The notes under the pieces: model-generated
What the model was told of the DNA's origin: nothing
What the model saw: the letters and a program-made list of their open reading frames with translations, nothing else
Database searches by the model: none
In this document: piece by piece, positions 4,494 to 28,354 of the stretch
Position numbering within the stretch: the stretch's first letter is position 1
How the letters are laid out: each line of letters begins with the position of its first letter
DNA from: a virus
DNA: 29,187 bases
Strand: one strand, 5' to 3'
Virus record (IMG/VR): IMGVR_UViG_3300025120_000354
Span: 1-29,187 of that record
Position numbers and translations under genes: made by a program

Positions 4494-4815
4494 CCTAGCT
4501 TTGCTAAGTGGCTGCTCGCTGATGCAGCCCGTAAAACCTGTGGAAGTAAAAACCATAGCAGAGCGTCCACCTATGTATCACCCGCCATTGCCCATGGAAA
4601 TGCAGTTAACCGACATACAGTTTGAAGTTTTAACCCCGGATATAATGCAAGAGTATTTATTGTCCGTAGAAGAAGGAAACGCCCCGGCAAAGCCCTATTA
4701 TGCTTTGACAACAAAACAGTACGAAAACTTAGCTATGAACATGGCTGAAATAAAAAGGTACACTAGCAATATTATTGCTGTCGTTAAATTTTATAGAGAC
4801 TATGATAAGGAGTAA
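4468..4815 (+). CDS. Outer-membrane lipoprotein spanin (Rz1-like)
   Basis: This 115-residue protein starts MRLLLFAVSLALLSGCSLMQ. The lipobox LLSG-C predicts cleavage before Cys16 and lipid attachment in the outer membrane. A Pro-rich stretch follows (about 20-45, with ERPPMYHPPLP), then a helical C-terminal region with the phrase YALTTKQYENLAMNMAEIKRY. I recognise this protein type in marine phages next to i-spanin genes. The 26-base out-of-frame overlap with the i-spanin gene matches the classic arrangement. It is longer than lambda Rz1, so an additional or different role is possible, but an o-spanin is the best reading. Confidence 0.72.
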   Translation: MRLLLFAVSLALLSGCSLMQPVKPVEVKTIAERPPMYHPPLPMEMQLTDIQFEVLTPDIMQEYLLSVEEGNAPAKPYYALTTKQYENLAMNMAEIKRYTSNIIAVVKFYRDYDKE

Positions 4816-8459: not shown

Positions 8460-8471
8460 GGAGGCTGACAA

Positions 8472-9383
8472 ATGGCTATTTCTCGCGCACAACTAGCAAA
8501 AGAGTTAGAACCGGGCCTCAATGCCTTGTTCGGATTGGAGTATGATCGCTATGATAGAGAGCATACTGAAATTTTTGATGAAGAATCTTCAGACCGAGCG
8601 TTTGAAGAGGAAGTAATGCTTGCAGGCTTCGGCTCTGCTCCCGTTAAAGGGGAAGGAAGCGCAATATCGTTTGATGACGCACAGGAAACTTACACTGCAC
8701 GTTATACTCACGAAACTATTGCACTTGCTTTTAGTATTACTGAAGAAGCCATCGAAGATAATTTATATGACAGATTGGCAAGTAGGTATACACGCGCTTT
8801 GGCACGTTCTATGTCTCAAACCAAGCAGATAAAAGCAGCGTCTATTTTAAACAACGCTTTTTCTACTGGAGCTAATGTCATTGGTGACGGTGTTGCACTT
8901 TGCTCCGCTAGTCATCCGTCTATTAGTGGTAACCAGAGCAATGTTTTGGCTGTCGCTGCGGACTTAAATGAAACTTCGTTAGAGCAGATGTTGATTGATA
9001 TTGCAGGAACAACCGACGAGCGTGGTTTGAAAGTTGCAATTCGTGGTATGAAGCTAATTATTCCTAAAGAGCTTCAATTTACTGCGGAACGTGTACTTAA
9101 TTCTACACTTAGACCGGGAAGTTCGGATAACGATGTTAATGCGGTTAAGTCTATGGGTATGTTGCCTGAAGGAGCGGTTGTAAACCACTTCCTCACAGAT
9201 ACTGATGGCTTCTTCATTAAAACGGATGCGCCAAACGGCTTTAAGCTGTTTCAACGCACACCTATCCGTACTGCAATGGAAGGCGACTTTGACACAGGAA
9301 ACATGCGTTTCAAAGCACGGGAGCGTTATAGCTTCGGTGTCTCTGATTGGCGGTCTGTGTTTGGTACTGCTGGAGCTGCTTAA
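8472..9383 (+). CDS. Major capsid protein
   Basis: This 303-residue protein begins MAISRAQLAKELEPGLNALF and contains YTHETIALAFSITEEAIEDN, then LYDRLASRYTRALARSMSQT and ILNNAF..., and ends with RERYSFGVSDWRSVFG. This wording is that of major capsid proteins of marine phages, distantly like the Mu-type major head subunit, with the HK97 fold expected. A perfect GGAGG seven bases before the ATG and a strong terminator after the stop fit a highly expressed gene. It follows the GroES-like, scaffold and decoration candidates in the usual order. No pro-domain or cleavage motif is obvious. Confidence 0.87.
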   Translation: MAISRAQLAKELEPGLNALFGLEYDRYDREHTEIFDEESSDRAFEEEVMLAGFGSAPVKGEGSAISFDDAQETYTARYTHETIALAFSITEEAIEDNLYDRLASRYTRALARSMSQTKQIKAASILNNAFSTGANVIGDGVALCSASHPSISGNQSNVLAVAADLNETSLEQMLIDIAGTTDERGLKVAIRGMKLIIPKELQFTAERVLNSTLRPGSSDNDVNAVKSMGMLPEGAVVNHFLTDTDGFFIKTDAPNGFKLFQRTPIRTAMEGDFDTGNMRFKARERYSFGVSDWRSVFGTAGAA

Positions 9384-22031: not shown

Positions 22032-23678
22032 ATGTCTGAAACAGCCACGTACCAACGACCCGAGTCGTTTACCGTTCCCGAAGGTGGTCTAGCCTCTTTT
22101 CTTACTGCGACTACAGGAGATTGGGCGGACGACGACAATAACCCAATACCCTCTTCAGGAATTGCTCAAGCAAAACAGGCCGCAGAGAAACTTTCAGAAT
22201 TTGGACGTTATGAAGACACCTACATGGTTCACGCCGCAGAAGGCGAAACCGTTATACCTACTGCTATTTTTGACGAAAACCCTAGGCTAAAAGAAAGCTT
22301 GTTCCGTCAGATGCGGGAAATGGGGCTAGAGCCAGAAAGTTATGTGGTAGGCAGCGACCTTAATAGTATTAACCCTGTAACGGGACAACCTGAGTTCTTT
22401 TTTAAGAAACTTTTTAAAGGTATTAAAAAAGCCGTAAAAGGCGTAGTTAAAGTCTTTAAAAAGATTGCCCCTATTGTTCTACCTATTGCTCTTTCTTTCA
22501 CCCCTTTAGGCCCTATTTATGGGGCTATGGCGGGGTCTGGTCTAGCCAGTTTAATACAAGGTAAAAGTATCGGTAAATCACTTAAATCCGCCCTTTTAAC
22601 AGGCGCAACGGCAGGATTAGCTACAGGGTTAGCCGGGGGAGTACAGGGGTTAAGTGCTGGAACAGGGTTTGGTCAAGGCTTTACTTCTGGAATAGGTAAC
22701 GCCTTATCTTCTCCGGGCGCACGATTATCTAACCTATTTAATCCTTCGGCAGACCAATTTGGTACTAAGTTTTTAAGCCCCAACACTGCCGTAGAAGGTG
22801 TGGGACCCGCAGGTAATTTTTCCGCTGGCCCCGTTCAAGCTACGGTGGGCCAAAAACTAGATCAACCTTTTCTTGATGCAAACCTTACCGCAGCAGAAAA
22901 ATCTTTTTATAGTCAACCGGGTGTAAATCAGCCTTTTACTAATCTTAGCGCAGCAGAAAAAGCTTATTATAATCAACTTCGACCAGACCAAGTAAATTTT
23001 CCGGCTAGCATAAAACCCACTGGTCTTAATACCAGTGGTCTTAACACCACGGCAGCACCTACAGGTGCGGGAGAAAGCAGGAACTTCTTGCAACGAACAA
23101 AGGACCTTTTGACAGGGGGATCTCCAGCGGACGTTGAACTTATGAAAAAAACTGCTGGGGATAAATTTGTAGCGGATATGGCGGCAAGAAACATCACGCC
23201 TACCGCCGCAGAGGTTACGGCTATAATGGATAAAGCAGGCCCCGGTATGCTTCGTAAATATGGCCCATCCGCTGCGATAGGTACAGGGGTGTTTTCATTA
23301 GCGGGTGGTTTTAAAGTTCCCGAAGAAGAGAAAGTAGACCTAGGCCCTACAGGTCAAGAATTATACGATGCAAACCCTGAACAATACGGATACATGAGCG
23401 ATCTTAGCTATTTAAACCCGTACAACGCACCTTCTAATAATGCGTACCGTCCAACCATGCTTGCAGCTAAGGGTGGAAATGCTGTTGCGTTTCCTAGAAG
23501 AATAGGTGGTATTTCAGGGCCGGGAACAGGAACATCGGATGACGTACCTGCCATGCTTTCTGATGGAGAGTTTGTAATGACAGCCGACGCAGTGCGTGGC
23601 GCAGGTGGCGGTAACCGACAACGAGGAATAAACAATATGTATTCTATGATGCGACGTTTTGAAGGGGGCTTAGTTTAA
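22032..23678 (+). CDS. Ejection-type virion protein with membrane-active segment
   Basis: This is a 548-residue protein. Residues 50-123 (EKLSEFGRYEDTYMVHAAEG, TVIPTAIFDENPRLKESLFR, MGLEPESYVVGSDLNSINPV) are strongly conserved in marine phages. Residues 122-145 are cationic and amphipathic (FFFKKLFKGIKKAVKGVVKV), followed by a hydrophobic, Gly/Ala-rich stretch to about 205. The C-terminal 53 residues begin GPGTGTSDDVPAMLSDGEFV, a motif found in several internal or tail proteins of phages. The middle contains a 60-bp tandem duplication. I infer a packaged protein that helps DNA cross membranes. Direct evidence is only the composition and context. Confidence 0.7.
   Translation: MSETATYQRPESFTVPEGGLASFLTATTGDWADDDNNPIPSSGIAQAKQAAEKLSEFGRYEDTYMVHAAEGETVIPTAIFDENPRLKESLFRQMREMGLEPESYVVGSDLNSINPVTGQPEFFFKKLFKGIKKAVKGVVKVFKKIAPIVLPIALSFTPLGPIYGAMAGSGLASLIQGKSIGKSLKSALLTGATAGLATGLAGGVQGLSAGTGFGQGFTSGIGNALSSPGARLSNLFNPSADQFGTKFLSPNTAVEGVGPAGNFSAGPVQATVGQKLDQPFLDANLTAAEKSFYSQPGVNQPFTNLSAAEKAYYNQLRPDQVNFPASIKPTGLNTSGLNTTAAPTGAGESRNFLQRTKDLLTGGSPADVELMKKTAGDKFVADMAARNITPTAAEVTAIMDKAGPGMLRKYGPSAAIGTGVFSLAGGFKVPEEEKVDLGPTGQELYDANPEQYGYMSDLSYLNPYNAPSNNAYRPTMLAAKGGNAVAFPRRIGGISGPGTGTSDDVPAMLSDGEFVMTADAVRGAGGGNRQRGINNMYSMMRRFEGGLV
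22861..22980 (+). repeat. Imperfect tandem coding duplication
   Basis: Two copies of a roughly 60-base unit code for QPF-LDANLTAAEKSFYSQ and QPF-TNLSAAEKAYYNQ. Copy two lacks two codons. The block GCAGCAGAAAAA is identical in both, exactly 60 bases apart (22890 and 22950). Confidence 0.85.
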
Positions 23679-24892
23679 TGGCTAACGAAACCACCACAAC
23701 GATCCAATCGGAATCTCCCGCGCTAGAAGCTAGAAAACTTGCACTAATAAATAATGCACAAAATTTAGTAACCCAGAACCTTGGTGCAGGGGTTACCCCT
23801 GCCGACTATAACGTAGCGGGTTTTTCTAATTTACAGAACCAAGGGTTTAATTTAGGTCAATCTGGAATAGGTGCTTACGCCCCATACCTTCAATCGGGAG
23901 ATGCCGCAATTCAAGGCGGCATGAACGCCGTAACAGGGGCTGCTTTGCCCATAATGGAAAATGCGTATGGTTTCTCTGACGACCAGCAAGGTAGATATGA
24001 TCCATATCGAGATCAAGCGAGGACGCAATATGGAGACGCTGCTTCAGGGGGACAAGGATATATAGATCAAGGGGCCGCAGGGCTGCAAGGAACAGGTGCG
24101 GCTTTCGACCCTAACACTACTTCTGAGTTTATGAACCCGTTTGAAACGCAAGCCGTACAACAGGCTTTAGCGGACTTACAACGCCAAGGCGACATACAAG
24201 CCATGCAAGGCAATGCCGCAGCCGTAGGTGCGGGCGCTTTTGGCGGAGCAAGGTCTGGCGTACAAAGTGCGGAAATGAATAGGAATTTATTAGATGCTCA
24301 ATCCCGTACTGCCGGAAACATGCGTATGGCGGGTTATCAAAATGCACAACAAGCAGCGCAAGCCGCTTTTGAAGCCAGCCAAGGCAGACAAATGCAGGGG
24401 GCCGGTATGTTGGCCAATATGGGCACAGCCTATGGAAACCTAGGCAACCAAAGTGCCCAAGGTATCGGCAATTTAGGGGTTAACTATGGCAATTTAGATA
24501 TAGCCAACACCAATCAAATGGCTAATATTGGTGCAAGCACTGCGGGCATAGGCGGACAATTAGCCAATATGGGCGTACAACAGGCTGGACTTGGAGAATT
24601 AACTTCTAAATTAAACTCCAACGACCTTAGCACTTTAATGACGTTAGGTGGGCAACAGCAAAACCAACAGCAGAACATTCTAAACACAAACACAGCAAAC
24701 GAGCAGGCTAATCAAAATTATCCGTATACCCAGTATTCTTTTTTAAGTGATATATACAGAAGTAACCCCGGACCTGTATCTAGCGTACAAACGACTAATA
24801 GTCCTAGTGCATCAACCTTTCAAAACATTGCGGGCTACGGCTTAGGCGCATTGACCGCAGGCGCAGCCGCTAAAAAAGCAAACTTATTTTAA
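23678..24892 (+). CDS. Gln/Gly/Ala-rich putative ejection protein
   Basis: This is a 404-residue protein. Residues 150-240 hold FMNPFETQAVQQALADLQRQ, then AVGAGAFGGARSGVQSAEMN and NRNLLDAQSRTAGNMRMAGY, a helix-rich pattern known from internal or ejected proteins of podoviruses. Residues 240-305 form a quasi-repeat of short NLG/NMG units (for example GTAYGNLGNQSAQGIGNLGV). The tail is Gln/Asn-rich and then small and hydrophobic (GYGLGALTAGAAAKKANLF). Its ATG overlaps the previous stop by one base. P22 gp7/gp20-like or T7 gp14-like roles are conceivable. Sequence does not decide. Confidence 0.68.
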   Translation: MANETTTTIQSESPALEARKLALINNAQNLVTQNLGAGVTPADYNVAGFSNLQNQGFNLGQSGIGAYAPYLQSGDAAIQGGMNAVTGAALPIMENAYGFSDDQQGRYDPYRDQARTQYGDAASGGQGYIDQGAAGLQGTGAAFDPNTTSEFMNPFETQAVQQALADLQRQGDIQAMQGNAAAVGAGAFGGARSGVQSAEMNRNLLDAQSRTAGNMRMAGYQNAQQAAQAAFEASQGRQMQGAGMLANMGTAYGNLGNQSAQGIGNLGVNYGNLDIANTNQMANIGASTAGIGGQLANMGVQQAGLGELTSKLNSNDLSTLMTLGGQQQNQQQNILNTNTANEQANQNYPYTQYSFLSDIYRSNPGPVSSVQTTNSPSASTFQNIAGYGLGALTAGAAAKKANLF

Positions 24893-24893
24893 A

Positions 24894-26303
24894 ATGAATA
24901 ATATTTTAACCAGACCTTTGTTTTTTAAAGACGGTGGTTCGCCCGAGGTTAACTTCGGCAACACGGGCGGCGTTAACTTCGGCAACACGGGCGGCGTTAA
25001 CTTTGGTTCTGGAAATATACCGACTACAGCCTCTTTTCAAAACTCAGGCTTGTTCGACTCTTCAACTGCGGCAAACACCGCAAACACCGCGAGCAATACA
25101 GGCTACGCGGCAAACGTTAATCAGGGCAATACTTCCGCTTATGGGGGCTATGTACCCGATCAAAGATTATTAAACCAAGCCAGCTCTCTTTACACGCCTA
25201 GATGGTTAGCGGAGCTTCAAGTTGGGGTCCCCAACGTTTCTGTGGATGGCAAGCAACTTGATATTACTCCTATTAAGGACGATACAGGTTTTACCATAGG
25301 GTATAACGATGGAAGTGGCGTAGACCGCGTAATAGGTAACGGTTTGCCTAATACGGTTGAATCGTTGGCCGCGACCCGCGGCTTTAAAGACCCTCAAGAT
25401 ATGTTTCAAAACAATGTGAATAGAGGAATTGTCAGCCCGCAAGGTTTTATAACAGTAGGCCCACTTATGGGGGCACGAGCGCAAACAGGAGCAACACCGA
25501 AAATAAGCGGGCCGTATGGCGGAGCTTTTAACCCTATTGAAACCCAAGATCCTAATAGACCTGCTTTTAATGCTTGGCAAACCTACCAAAGAACCGGGGT
25601 GCATCCTACTTTAAAAGGTGACGAACTTTACGAATGGGTAGACAATGGTGAGCAAGCACTATATGGAGAGGATAGATATTCCCCGGTTAGAACGTCGAGG
25701 CACACCGTTAGACACCCCTCTCGTGCCGCGCAAAAACTAAGGACAGATGCAGAAGCAGAAGGTTTGGCTTTCCTATCAAGGAACAACGGTGGGCCAATAA
25801 ACAAATACGCAAACGGAGGCGAGATAATGCAGGACCCAAACATGATGGGCGGATCACCCCAAGGATTAGATTCTTTAGTGGAACAAGTAGACCCGCAAAT
25901 GCTTGCGGGAGCAGAACAGCAAGCTGCCACTGAAGCAGAGAGCATAGGCCGTGATTATTTAAGCTCTGTTATGACGGGTTTAGACGGTGCTGAAGATGCG
26001 GAGTCCGTGATTAACGCGCTTAGGGGCGACCAAATGCCCATATCAGCACGGTACGAAGAGCTGGCAGGGATAGTAGGCCTGCAAGACGCACAAGCCACTC
26101 CGGAATCGGTGTTGGCTTTAGTCCAACCTTCAATTATGCTATCACAAGACGAAGGTCCTGTGGACAGTGGGGTAGGACGCTTGATGCAAGGTGTGGCGGG
26201 GGATGTTAATATGGCAACAGGCGAAGGGGACGTTAACCCTATGGGTCAAGGTGTCGGTAATTTAATGATGCAAGGTGCGGCCCCTCAAGAGTCTTTTGCT
26301 TAA
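24894..26303 (+). CDS. Putative two-part internal virion protein
   Basis: This is a 469-residue protein. Residues 1-95 are Asn/Gly/Thr/Ala-rich with a VNFGNTGG repeat. Residues 95-290 form a mixed globular part with no family I can name. After NNGGPINKYANGGEIMQ (298-313), the C-terminal part contains LDSLVEQVDPQMLAGAEQQA, RDYLSSVMTGLDGAEDAESV and INALRGDQMPISARYEELAG. I know this acidic helical domain from marine-phage virion proteins, where I believe it often stands alone. An ATG with a perfect GGAGG lies exactly at the junction (25827), so two products may be made. Short-tailed phage ejection protein is the likely role. Confidence 0.65.
   Translation: MNNILTRPLFFKDGGSPEVNFGNTGGVNFGNTGGVNFGSGNIPTTASFQNSGLFDSSTAANTANTASNTGYAANVNQGNTSAYGGYVPDQRLLNQASSLYTPRWLAELQVGVPNVSVDGKQLDITPIKDDTGFTIGYNDGSGVDRVIGNGLPNTVESLAATRGFKDPQDMFQNNVNRGIVSPQGFITVGPLMGARAQTGATPKISGPYGGAFNPIETQDPNRPAFNAWQTYQRTGVHPTLKGDELYEWVDNGEQALYGEDRYSPVRTSRHTVRHPSRAAQKLRTDAEAEGLAFLSRNNGGPINKYANGGEIMQDPNMMGGSPQGLDSLVEQVDPQMLAGAEQQAATEAESIGRDYLSSVMTGLDGAEDAESVINALRGDQMPISARYEELAGIVGLQDAQATPESVLALVQPSIMLSQDEGPVDSGVGRLMQGVAGDVNMATGEGDVNPMGQGVGNLMMQGAAPQESFA
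24948..25007 (+). repeat. 24-bp coding repeat (VNFGNTGG)
   Basis: Two identical 24-base copies (24948-24971 and 24972-24995) and a half copy code for VNFGNTGG-VNFGNTGG-VNFG. Identity of the two copies suggests a recent duplication. Confidence 0.92.
25815..25819 (+). promoter_or_regulatory. Internal Shine-Dalgarno before in-frame ATG 25827
   Basis: GGAGG at 25815-25819 stands seven bases before the in-frame ATG 25827 (codon 312 of the 469-codon gene). This equals the best initiation sites in the window, such as that of the capsid gene (GGAGG, seven bases). It would give a C-terminal product of 158 residues ending at 26303. Confidence 0.5.
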
Positions 26304-26317
26304 AGGTAGTGTAAATT

Positions 26318-28354
26318 ATGGCTATTCCTAAATCTGCTTTTGACCGTATGAACCCACAAAAAATGAATGTTGGGGGTACGCCAGCAACCGCTTACGAGAC
26401 ACTGGTACGAAGTTTAATGCCACAAGAGCGCACCATTTCAGAATATCAACAAACGGCGGAAGAAGAATTAAGCCCGTTTCTTGGCTCACGGGCCGCGGAC
26501 CGCGATTACAATCAATCTCAGATATTATTTAACTTGTCTAAAAACCTTTTTGATTATGGAAGCACCGGAGAGTTTGGACCCGCAGCAAGCAACTTTATTG
26601 GCAACGTAGGTGCCGTATCAAAAGCGGCAACCGATGCCGAAAAGCAACGTAAGTTAGCGATAGGTACAAGAGCCTTAGCTTCTAGAGACAAAGACATAGA
26701 CGCAAAAAGAAAAATACAACTGGCTATAGCACAAAATAAAAGTTCTACAAAATCTTTGATGGCAAAAGGGCCGGGGGGAAGAACTTTTTTTGGAACAACT
26801 CCTCAAATTTTAAGACAGAACATGTTAGCCGAGGGTATAGATAAAGACTTTGTAAGCAAAGTAGTTCCTAACACTATTACCGGAGCTACAGACTCAGATA
26901 AAAAAGAATTTTACGGTGTAGGCGCAACTGGAACTAAATATTTTGGAAAAAACGCCAAAGAAATACAAGACAAAATGAAAGAAGGTGGAGAAGATCCAGC
27001 GCTTATCAAAAAAATGGTTCCTTACACCATATCGGCTAGAAATGATGCTGACATAAGAGTATCCGGAGACAGTCAATTTGTTCGTTACTTAGATGGCAAG
27101 GGAGAATATCAAGAAGAATTTTTTCCAACTAAACTATTAGCAAACGAGTTTGCAGCTAAACTTAACAAAGGAGATAACCTTGGAAAAGGCAATAAGTTGA
27201 TAAGCGTTGATCCGGCTTCTGAACAAGCAGATTATGATCCAATTAACGTGGTAGACTTAGATACTCAAGAGGTTATTTCATATAACAACTTTAACGAAAT
27301 TCCACAAAAGCAAAAAAATGCAAATTTTCATATAGGAAAATCTACAAACGCAAATTATGCGGATAATTTGAAACGTGCCCAATTAAATTTTGATCGTAAG
27401 AATTTACCTAAAAAACAAAAAAGTGTAGAAAGTTCCGAAGAAAGTGCAGCAAACCAACAAACTAAATATGTAGGGTCGGTTGAGCTATCTTTAGGCAATG
27501 CTACGACAGGCAATGTAAGAGGTTTAAATCAAGTTTCCTCTTTTCCCCTTAACGCAATAAGACCTGTTGATTTAAGAAATATAAAAAATTTAATTAACAA
27601 TAAAGAAGTACCAATAGATTTTGAAAATAATAGAGGGGTAGCTGCTTATTTATTTAAACATGCGCTGCCCACATATAAGAAAAATTTAAAAAACTTAGGT
27701 ATTGAATTTATTAACGACCCTTATTTTAGTAATCCTGAAAAGTATTTTAAACTTGTTGAAGAAACTACACCTGAGTTTTACAACAGTGAAAATTATACAA
27801 CTTTGCTTTCTAATGTTGGTGGAAGTAGTTTAATAAACAACGTATTGGGTGGAGCAGGTTCCGTATTAGATATTTCTTTAACCGAGGCACAAACAAATCA
27901 AGTAGTCTTTAACAAGCTTAATGACATTATTAACAGCAAATTTAGAGTTCAAGCTTTTAACGAATTAGATTTAACTACGCCTAGATTTACTAAATTGGTG
28001 AGTGAGCTAGTTCAGCCTTTTGAACTACCTTCGTTTGGTCTTTTTGCAGGTGAACAAAAATTTCAAAAATCTTTAGAAGCAAAACGACAATCGTACCGAT
28101 CAGGAATGAAAATAGTAGCTGGGGAAATAAAAAGAGGATTTGAAAATCCGAACGATACTACTGTAAAACGAATGGACGAAGCTAAAGCACTTTATGAAAC
28201 AATGCTTCCCGGTTTTATTGCTTTGAACCAATTAACCAACGCGGTGTCTCAAGCAAAATTTGAGGAAAAAGTTTCTCAAGACCCTGCTTACCGTCAAAAC
28301 ACTTCTAACTGGTTTGAAAAAAATATACTAGGGGCAATTAATGGCAATAGATAA
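26318..28354 (+). CDS. Large putative internal virion protein
   Basis: This is a 678-residue protein. Residues 1-150 are helical, with AYETLVRSLMPQERTISEYQ and SQILFNLSKNLFDYGSTGEF. Residues 155-240 contain an internal duplication with a 51-residue period: RTFFGTTPQILRQNMLAEGI...VVPNTIT and TKYFGKNAKEIQDKMKEGGE...MVPYTIS. The C-terminal half is helical and unassigned, with LIQ-free, Lys/Asn-rich composition and, by eye, more A/T in its codons than the upstream genes. It overlaps the next gene by 14 bases. Size and position within the ejection block suggest an internal virion protein. No transglycosylase or protease motif was seen. Confidence 0.65.
   Translation: MAIPKSAFDRMNPQKMNVGGTPATAYETLVRSLMPQERTISEYQQTAEEELSPFLGSRAADRDYNQSQILFNLSKNLFDYGSTGEFGPAASNFIGNVGAVSKAATDAEKQRKLAIGTRALASRDKDIDAKRKIQLAIAQNKSSTKSLMAKGPGGRTFFGTTPQILRQNMLAEGIDKDFVSKVVPNTITGATDSDKKEFYGVGATGTKYFGKNAKEIQDKMKEGGEDPALIKKMVPYTISARNDADIRVSGDSQFVRYLDGKGEYQEEFFPTKLLANEFAAKLNKGDNLGKGNKLISVDPASEQADYDPINVVDLDTQEVISYNNFNEIPQKQKNANFHIGKSTNANYADNLKRAQLNFDRKNLPKKQKSVESSEESAANQQTKYVGSVELSLGNATTGNVRGLNQVSSFPLNAIRPVDLRNIKNLINNKEVPIDFENNRGVAAYLFKHALPTYKKNLKNLGIEFINDPYFSNPEKYFKLVEETTPEFYNSENYTTLLSNVGGSSLINNVLGGAGSVLDISLTEAQTNQVVFNKLNDIINSKFRVQAFNELDLTTPRFTKLVSELVQPFELPSFGLFAGEQKFQKSLEAKRQSYRSGMKIVAGEIKRGFENPNDTTVKRMDEAKALYETMLPGFIALNQLTNAVSQAKFEEKVSQDPAYRQNTSNWFEKNILGAINGNR

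Follow-up and report, generated by a model that had tools for sequence, protein, structure and literature searches.

In phage lambda, the genes C and Nu3 are nested in frame, such that an internal start yields the C-terminal domain as a protein in its own right. The site described here, an ATG preceded by a Shine-Dalgarno (SD)-like GGAGG within a 469-codon open reading frame (ORF) of a virus, would likewise be an in-frame internal start giving a C-terminal domain. It differs from C/Nu3 in that the start is not conserved in its family and that it is, here, a candidate from the sequence alone.

A second point of comparison is provided by the ejection proteins of the T7/P22 type (gp14/gp15/gp16). 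These are encoded by adjacent genes in the podovirus structural module and are large, divergent and mosaic proteins, whose domains have been swapped (PMC8954989). The genes for podovirus internal virion proteins are hard to place owing to divergence or mosaicism, as stated in a podovirus study (PMC10386132). The 469-residue protein shares this genomic setting and these general features, but differs in that it has no match to a PHROG or Pfam family, and it is likened to the T7/P22-type proteins by position only. Our search of the literature on internal starts and marine ejection proteins found no paper on the acidic-domain family to which it belongs.

The only match to the 469-residue protein or to its C-terminal domain in the phage collection was a protein of DSL-LC04 (OR003939.1), reported as a phage from a lake metagenome whose terminase groups with those of Pelagibacter phages (PMC10611076). 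The DSL-LC04 protein, a hypothetical protein of 645 amino acids, is flanked by a 294-aa protein and a ‘DNA transfer protein’. The two loci share the gene order (tape-measure-like, ejection-like, the 469- or 645-aa protein and, in DSL-LC04, the DNA transfer protein), and the domain core is 51% identical over 45 residues. They differ in that DSL-LC04 has one ORF where our virus has two, lacks the long insert and starts with MKSKVMERSMFRKG, without GG.

Results

A strong SD-like sequence precedes an in-frame ATG at a module border

We analyzed a viral DNA of 29,187 nucleotides (IMG/VR record IMGVR_UViG_3300025120_000354, positions 1–29,187), referred to as the window. Its 469-codon ORF (24894–26303, + strand) is a split-type member of the family described below and comprises a leader, MNNILTRPLFFKDGG (24894–24938), an insert (24939–25805) and an acidic domain. 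The insert ends at YANGG (25806–25820), one copy of a recurring [FYM]xxGG linker motif, whose Gly-Gly is encoded by GGA GGC and therefore includes the SD-like GGAGG (25815–25819). The spacer CGAGATA (25820–25826) separates the latter from the in-frame ATG at 25827, codon 312, from which a candidate internal ORF of 158 residues extends to 26303. A first-pass annotation had pointed out this GGAGG, its seven-base spacer and the ATG; all of these coordinates were confirmed. The signal is thus real, it is strong, and it marks a module border directly before a conserved acidic helical domain. The conserved core of this domain, with the motif DAQATPESVLALVQP, covers its residues 23–108 (25893–26150).

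The C-terminal 158 residues include 24 Asp/Glu, 4 Arg and no Lys (pI 4.05). When modeled alone, the domain was predicted to be helical (AlphaFold2, mean pLDDT 76.4, pTM 0.40), whereas the model of the full-length protein, insert included, was uninformative (pLDDT 31.6). A fold search of the PDB with the domain gave no match at E 1e-3, and a profile search of PDB sequences gave best E values of only 0.016 and 0.024; in BFVD, one match fell below E 0.001, an unnamed viral protein of 942 amino acids (E 2e-6).

SD strength was scored as the duplex energy with the 16S tail, with 34 ORFs of the window treated as genes. With −9.5 kcal/mol, the site at 25827 was the best of the 339 in-frame internal ATG, GTG and TTG codons, a strong start signal inside a longer gene as expected for a nested gene, and the starts of only two of the 34 ORFs exceeded it (8472, −12.2; 23678, −10.8). 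By contrast, an SD is all but absent from the gene's own start, ATG 24894 (−0.1). This gene begins one base past the stop codon of the upstream ORF (24888–24896), so that, given the near absence of an SD, it probably needs translational coupling. The local RNA fold at 25827 showed no unusual stability (z 0.06 and −0.31). A second product from this ATG is possible in biophysical terms.

How often such a site arises by chance was estimated by keeping the proteins fixed and shuffling synonymous codons 1000 times over 33 ORFs. Two copies of GGAGG-N4-10-ATG lie on the + strand of the window, one at 8460, ahead of the capsid ORF at 8472, and the other at 25815; the − strand has none. At least one in-frame copy appeared in 46.7% of the 1000 shuffles (mean 0.63 sites), and 28.5% placed one in the 469-codon gene. 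An equally strong SD arose in the linker in 20% of 40 synonymous shuffles of the 469-codon ORF. The phage avoids GGA-GG pairs (3 observed against a shuffled mean of 22.7, range 10–35), and an ATG stands at the right distance from one of its 83 GG pairs, which gives P = 3/83 = 0.036 for the placement in view of this avoidance. Were it not for the avoidance of GGA-GG, the placement would not look unusual; we regard the site as notable but short of compelling.

The gene is probably a split form of a long modular ORF in an ejection-type cassette

We collected relatives by four scans of viral contigs and one of genome contigs, to which DSL-LC04 and the window were added. Individual loci are designated L001 and so forth. 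The domain-bearing set comprised 244 sequences (243 loci, some from the same contigs, and the window); since loci repeat contigs across scans, it was reduced at 97% identity to 143 non-redundant sequences. L229, in which no domain could be recognized, was dropped. The family as treated here is a sample, consisting of the best 80 loci per scan, out of 147, 392 and 361 matched in three of the scans. In an earlier set of 84 sequences, the first leader motif that we used was missing from 7, which were read separately.

The usual anatomy of these proteins is a leader, R-x(1,2)-[LM]-F and mostly GG, followed by a linker rich in Met and Pro, the acidic helical domain and, still within one ORF, several hundred further residues. 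The leader motif precedes the domain in all 137 non-redundant ORFs with a complete 5′ end. Among the 118 with a complete 3′ end, 115 extend at least 200 residues beyond the core motif (median extension over all 118, 787 residues); the ORF ends behind the domain only in the window, L001 and L166. The raw set has 205 ORFs with complete 3′ ends, of which 5 terminate no more than 250 residues past the core, namely these three and L078 and L118, which represent one contig (a 315-residue ORF ending 186 residues past the core) and lie outside the 118. The first-pass annotation took the domain to be a separate protein in other marine phages; our sample does not support this, as none of the 244 sequences has it standing alone. 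No ORF with a complete 5′ end had fewer than 80 residues before the core when ORFs were taken from their first start codon, a rule that would overlook any bare-domain gene enclosed in a longer open frame.

In L166 (2170–5976), the family ORF is split independently, right behind the acidic domain, with the stop codon followed directly by an ATG that opens the next ORF without a change of frame. In the window, the next gene (26318–28354, +, 678 aa) probably corresponds to the portion that relatives carry fused behind the domain. It matched the DSL-LC04 645-aa ORF behind its domain by blastp (E 2e-4) and the fused part of relatives weakly by hhalign (probability 18% and 40%). We infer from the rarity of the split state that the 469-codon gene and the next gene represent a split form of one ORF, and not the reverse.

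The setting of the gene is that of an ejection-type cassette. The window has PHROG matches to portal, head, tail-fibre and ejection-type genes; the gene immediately upstream (23678–24892, +, 404 aa) matches the ‘DNA ejection protein’ phrog_4287 (E 7.6e-6), and in DSL-LC04 the ‘DNA transfer protein’ comes next. The protein itself matched no known ejection protein in sequence or fold (PHROG, Pfam, PDB). From its position only, we assign it to the ejection machinery, in which it would be a split, insert-bearing derived form of a modular protein.

Other modules recur in the relatives. A loop, FPDLSGDGKVTQKDILMGRG, is present in 34 of the 143 family proteins (for example L065, L145 and L048) as an exchangeable module near the leader. 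It resembles an EF-hand or dockerin loop; Pfam gave no match for L065 or L049. L153 (1651–2838) carries a 396-residue extension with internal repeats ahead of the leader, which ends in AAGGAGGTGAAGTTATG at the leader's Met.

The GG linker motif belongs to the protein, and most relatives lack the start signal

[FYM]xxGG is a protein-level motif. In the 143 proteins it occurs 3.1 times per protein, as compared with 0.6 in shuffled proteins, and Phe or Tyr is enriched 4.6-fold exactly at position −3 of the GG. Its copies (in the window, 24924–24938 and 25806–25820) often lie at module borders, and it is a possible binding or cleavage motif. We also considered that the GG motifs might be a row of old ribosome-binding sites, that is, translated SD sequences; the dominance of GGC and GGT and the Phe/Tyr preference at −3 ruled this out.

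Codon usage at the equivalent sites differs from that of the window. In the larger set of family ORFs, the first codon of Gly-Gly-x-x-Met was GGA in 6 of 94 cases and another codon in the remaining 88. The earlier set (ORFs from 77 of the 84 sequences) had GGC or GGT in 42 of 44, with GGA only in the window and L001, and GGxxM in all ORFs of the loci began with GGA in 7 of 128. L025 and L026 encode GGEAM with GGC GGT. Homologues that keep the coding motif without the GGAGG, which the annotation named among the observations that would refute its proposal, therefore prevail in the family at large; the close sister L001, however, has the GGAGG.

The signal is also depleted as such. Within the linker zone, GGAGG-N4-10-ATG was found at 13 sites in 11 of the 143 proteins, as compared with an average of 32.9 sites in 26.3 proteins over 100 synonymous shuffles, and it is avoided elsewhere in the family ORFs too (18 versus 55.2). 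With 112 proteins, the corresponding values were 10 versus 25.7 in the linker and 13 versus 40 elsewhere. A relaxed avoidance in the linker, suggested by 64 sequences (7 sites in the linker and 2 elsewhere; shuffled, 10.7 and 22.1), vanished with 112 and 143 proteins. The best SD energy in the linker averaged weaker than in shuffled sequences (−6.36 versus −7.42; 63 sequences, 11 of which reach −8.5; the pattern used missed L025 and L047). Since GGA is rare at Gly-Gly-x-x-Met and GGAGG-N4-10-ATG is depleted in linkers, the family shows no sign of keeping an internal start at the domain. Unlike a nested gene with a start conserved among homologues, the start is shared with a single close sister.

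Most relatives have the same type of linker without the signal, which argues against a dedicated product and for either an incidental by-product of the linker or a start that is leaky in one lineage. We consider it most likely, if by no means assured, that the site is incidental and has no dedicated function, although some 158-residue product may leak from it in the cell.

A close sister shares the site

The main alternative is a functional internal start confined to this lineage, by which the gene, like lambda C/Nu3, would produce both the 469-residue protein and the 158-residue acidic domain, and the long insert-bearing form and the bare domain would differ in copy number in assembly. The strength of the SD relative to the gene's own start, the identity of the product with the conserved domain and a location outside any unusually stable fold agree with this, as does the sister locus. 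L001 has GGAGG-N7-ATG at the same place (junction GACGGAGGCGAAGTGATG in L001, AACGGAGGCGAGATAATG in the window). Only 26 of 101 fourfold sites of the gene are identical in the two loci, which amounts to saturation, and the shared GGA is thus not simply a matter of recent ancestry; nevertheless, shared Gly codons are identical in 30 of 92 cases over three genes, which puts the chance retention of GGA at ~0.33. Synonymous conservation at the junction was not exceptional, and the most conserved windows fell in the next gene.

The best argument for use of the start comes from where else the pattern occurs. The L001 record has five GGAGG-N4-10-ATG on the coding strand, including the internal site, and the other four open frames with an in-frame stop 5–23 codons upstream (short stretches only), from which we judge them to be probably gene starts. 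Taken together, the window and L001 have five probable gene starts of this form (8460 and the four in L001) and two copies of the internal site; the pattern is otherwise seen only at such starts, and it is for this reason that we retain a functional start in this lineage as a real, albeit clearly less probable, reading. Against it, the site is not kept in the family, and two further scans, by the insert and by the next gene, returned only the contig of L001 as a close relative, such that conservation rests on the one comparison between it and the window.

The same pair of loci shows a tract of almost identical DNA with long identical runs in the early codons of the next gene (window ~26476–26614, L001 ~4600–4740). 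It includes windows with 8 of 8 shared codons, while the surrounding synonymous sites are far more diverged. The tract may reflect recent recombination or an element acting at the DNA or RNA level; it had no match in the phage collection.

Inserts between leader and domain

The stretch from leader to domain spans ~290 residues in the window and ~195 in L001. The two are similar to each other (tblastn E 1e-29) and to nothing else among all loci compared. At least 150 residues separate leader and core in 21 of the 137 ORFs. L037 carries a different insert in this stretch, and its sisters L021–L024 and L030 have none, a distribution that suggests that inserts of this sort are gained.

It is conceivable, but improbable, that such inserts arrive as modules whose 3′ edge supplies an in-frame ribosome-binding site with its ATG (GGE[IVM]M encoded as GGA GGN GAR NNN ATG), whereby the domain or leader behind the insert would be translated on its own as well as within the long protein. 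The family ORFs contain four GGE[IVM]M sites (window, L001, L037 and L153). All four read GGA GGN GAR, and each lies where an insert or extension ends on its 3′ side. Tblastn showed no similarity among the inserts and extensions of window/L001, L037 and L153 (E up to 1). The L153 site lies within AAGGAGGTGA, an extended complement of the 16S tail. The GGE[IVM]M class was, however, chosen post hoc and comprises three independent cases; among the 21 long-insert proteins, the linker zone carries the signal only in the window, L001 and L037 and lacks it in the other 18. Moreover, the remaining GG[DE]xM sites use codons other than GGA (13 of 17 rows), GGExM has GGA in 4 of 11 cases over all ORFs, and GGEVM in another gene of L034 begins with GGC.

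The gene fusion proposed in the first-pass annotation, in which a once-separate domain gene would have retained its old start, is the least probable reading and is unsupported by our data despite the SD and ATG at a module border, because in the relatives sampled the domain never begins an ORF by the first-start-codon rule but normally lies near the N-terminus of a long ORF behind the leader, the signal is depleted in linkers, the insert (among the loci compared, present only in the window and L001) and not the domain is the part that other relatives lack, and the split and fused states differ at the domain's other end.

Discussion

Our preferred reading, an incidental site, can be placed in the following scheme. 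Marine podovirus-like phages would carry, in an ejection-type cassette, a modular protein composed of a short leader, optional inserts and an acidic helical domain, the modules being joined by the protein motif [FYM]xxGG. The lineage of the window would have an insert between leader and domain that ends in the usual GG motif. With Met-rich linkers, a Gly-Gly that happens to be GGA GGC would then place GGAGG seven bases before an ATG. A caution follows: wherever a Gly-Gly linker has GGA as its first codon and Met comes after it, the coding sequence will imitate a ribosome-binding site.

Use of the start would add another phage gene that gives two in-frame structural products, here in an ejection machine about which little is known. 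As matters stand, what is useful is that a widespread family (392 matching stretches in one scan) has been described that has no PHROG or Pfam name and is marked by its leader, its GG linkers and its exchangeable inserts.
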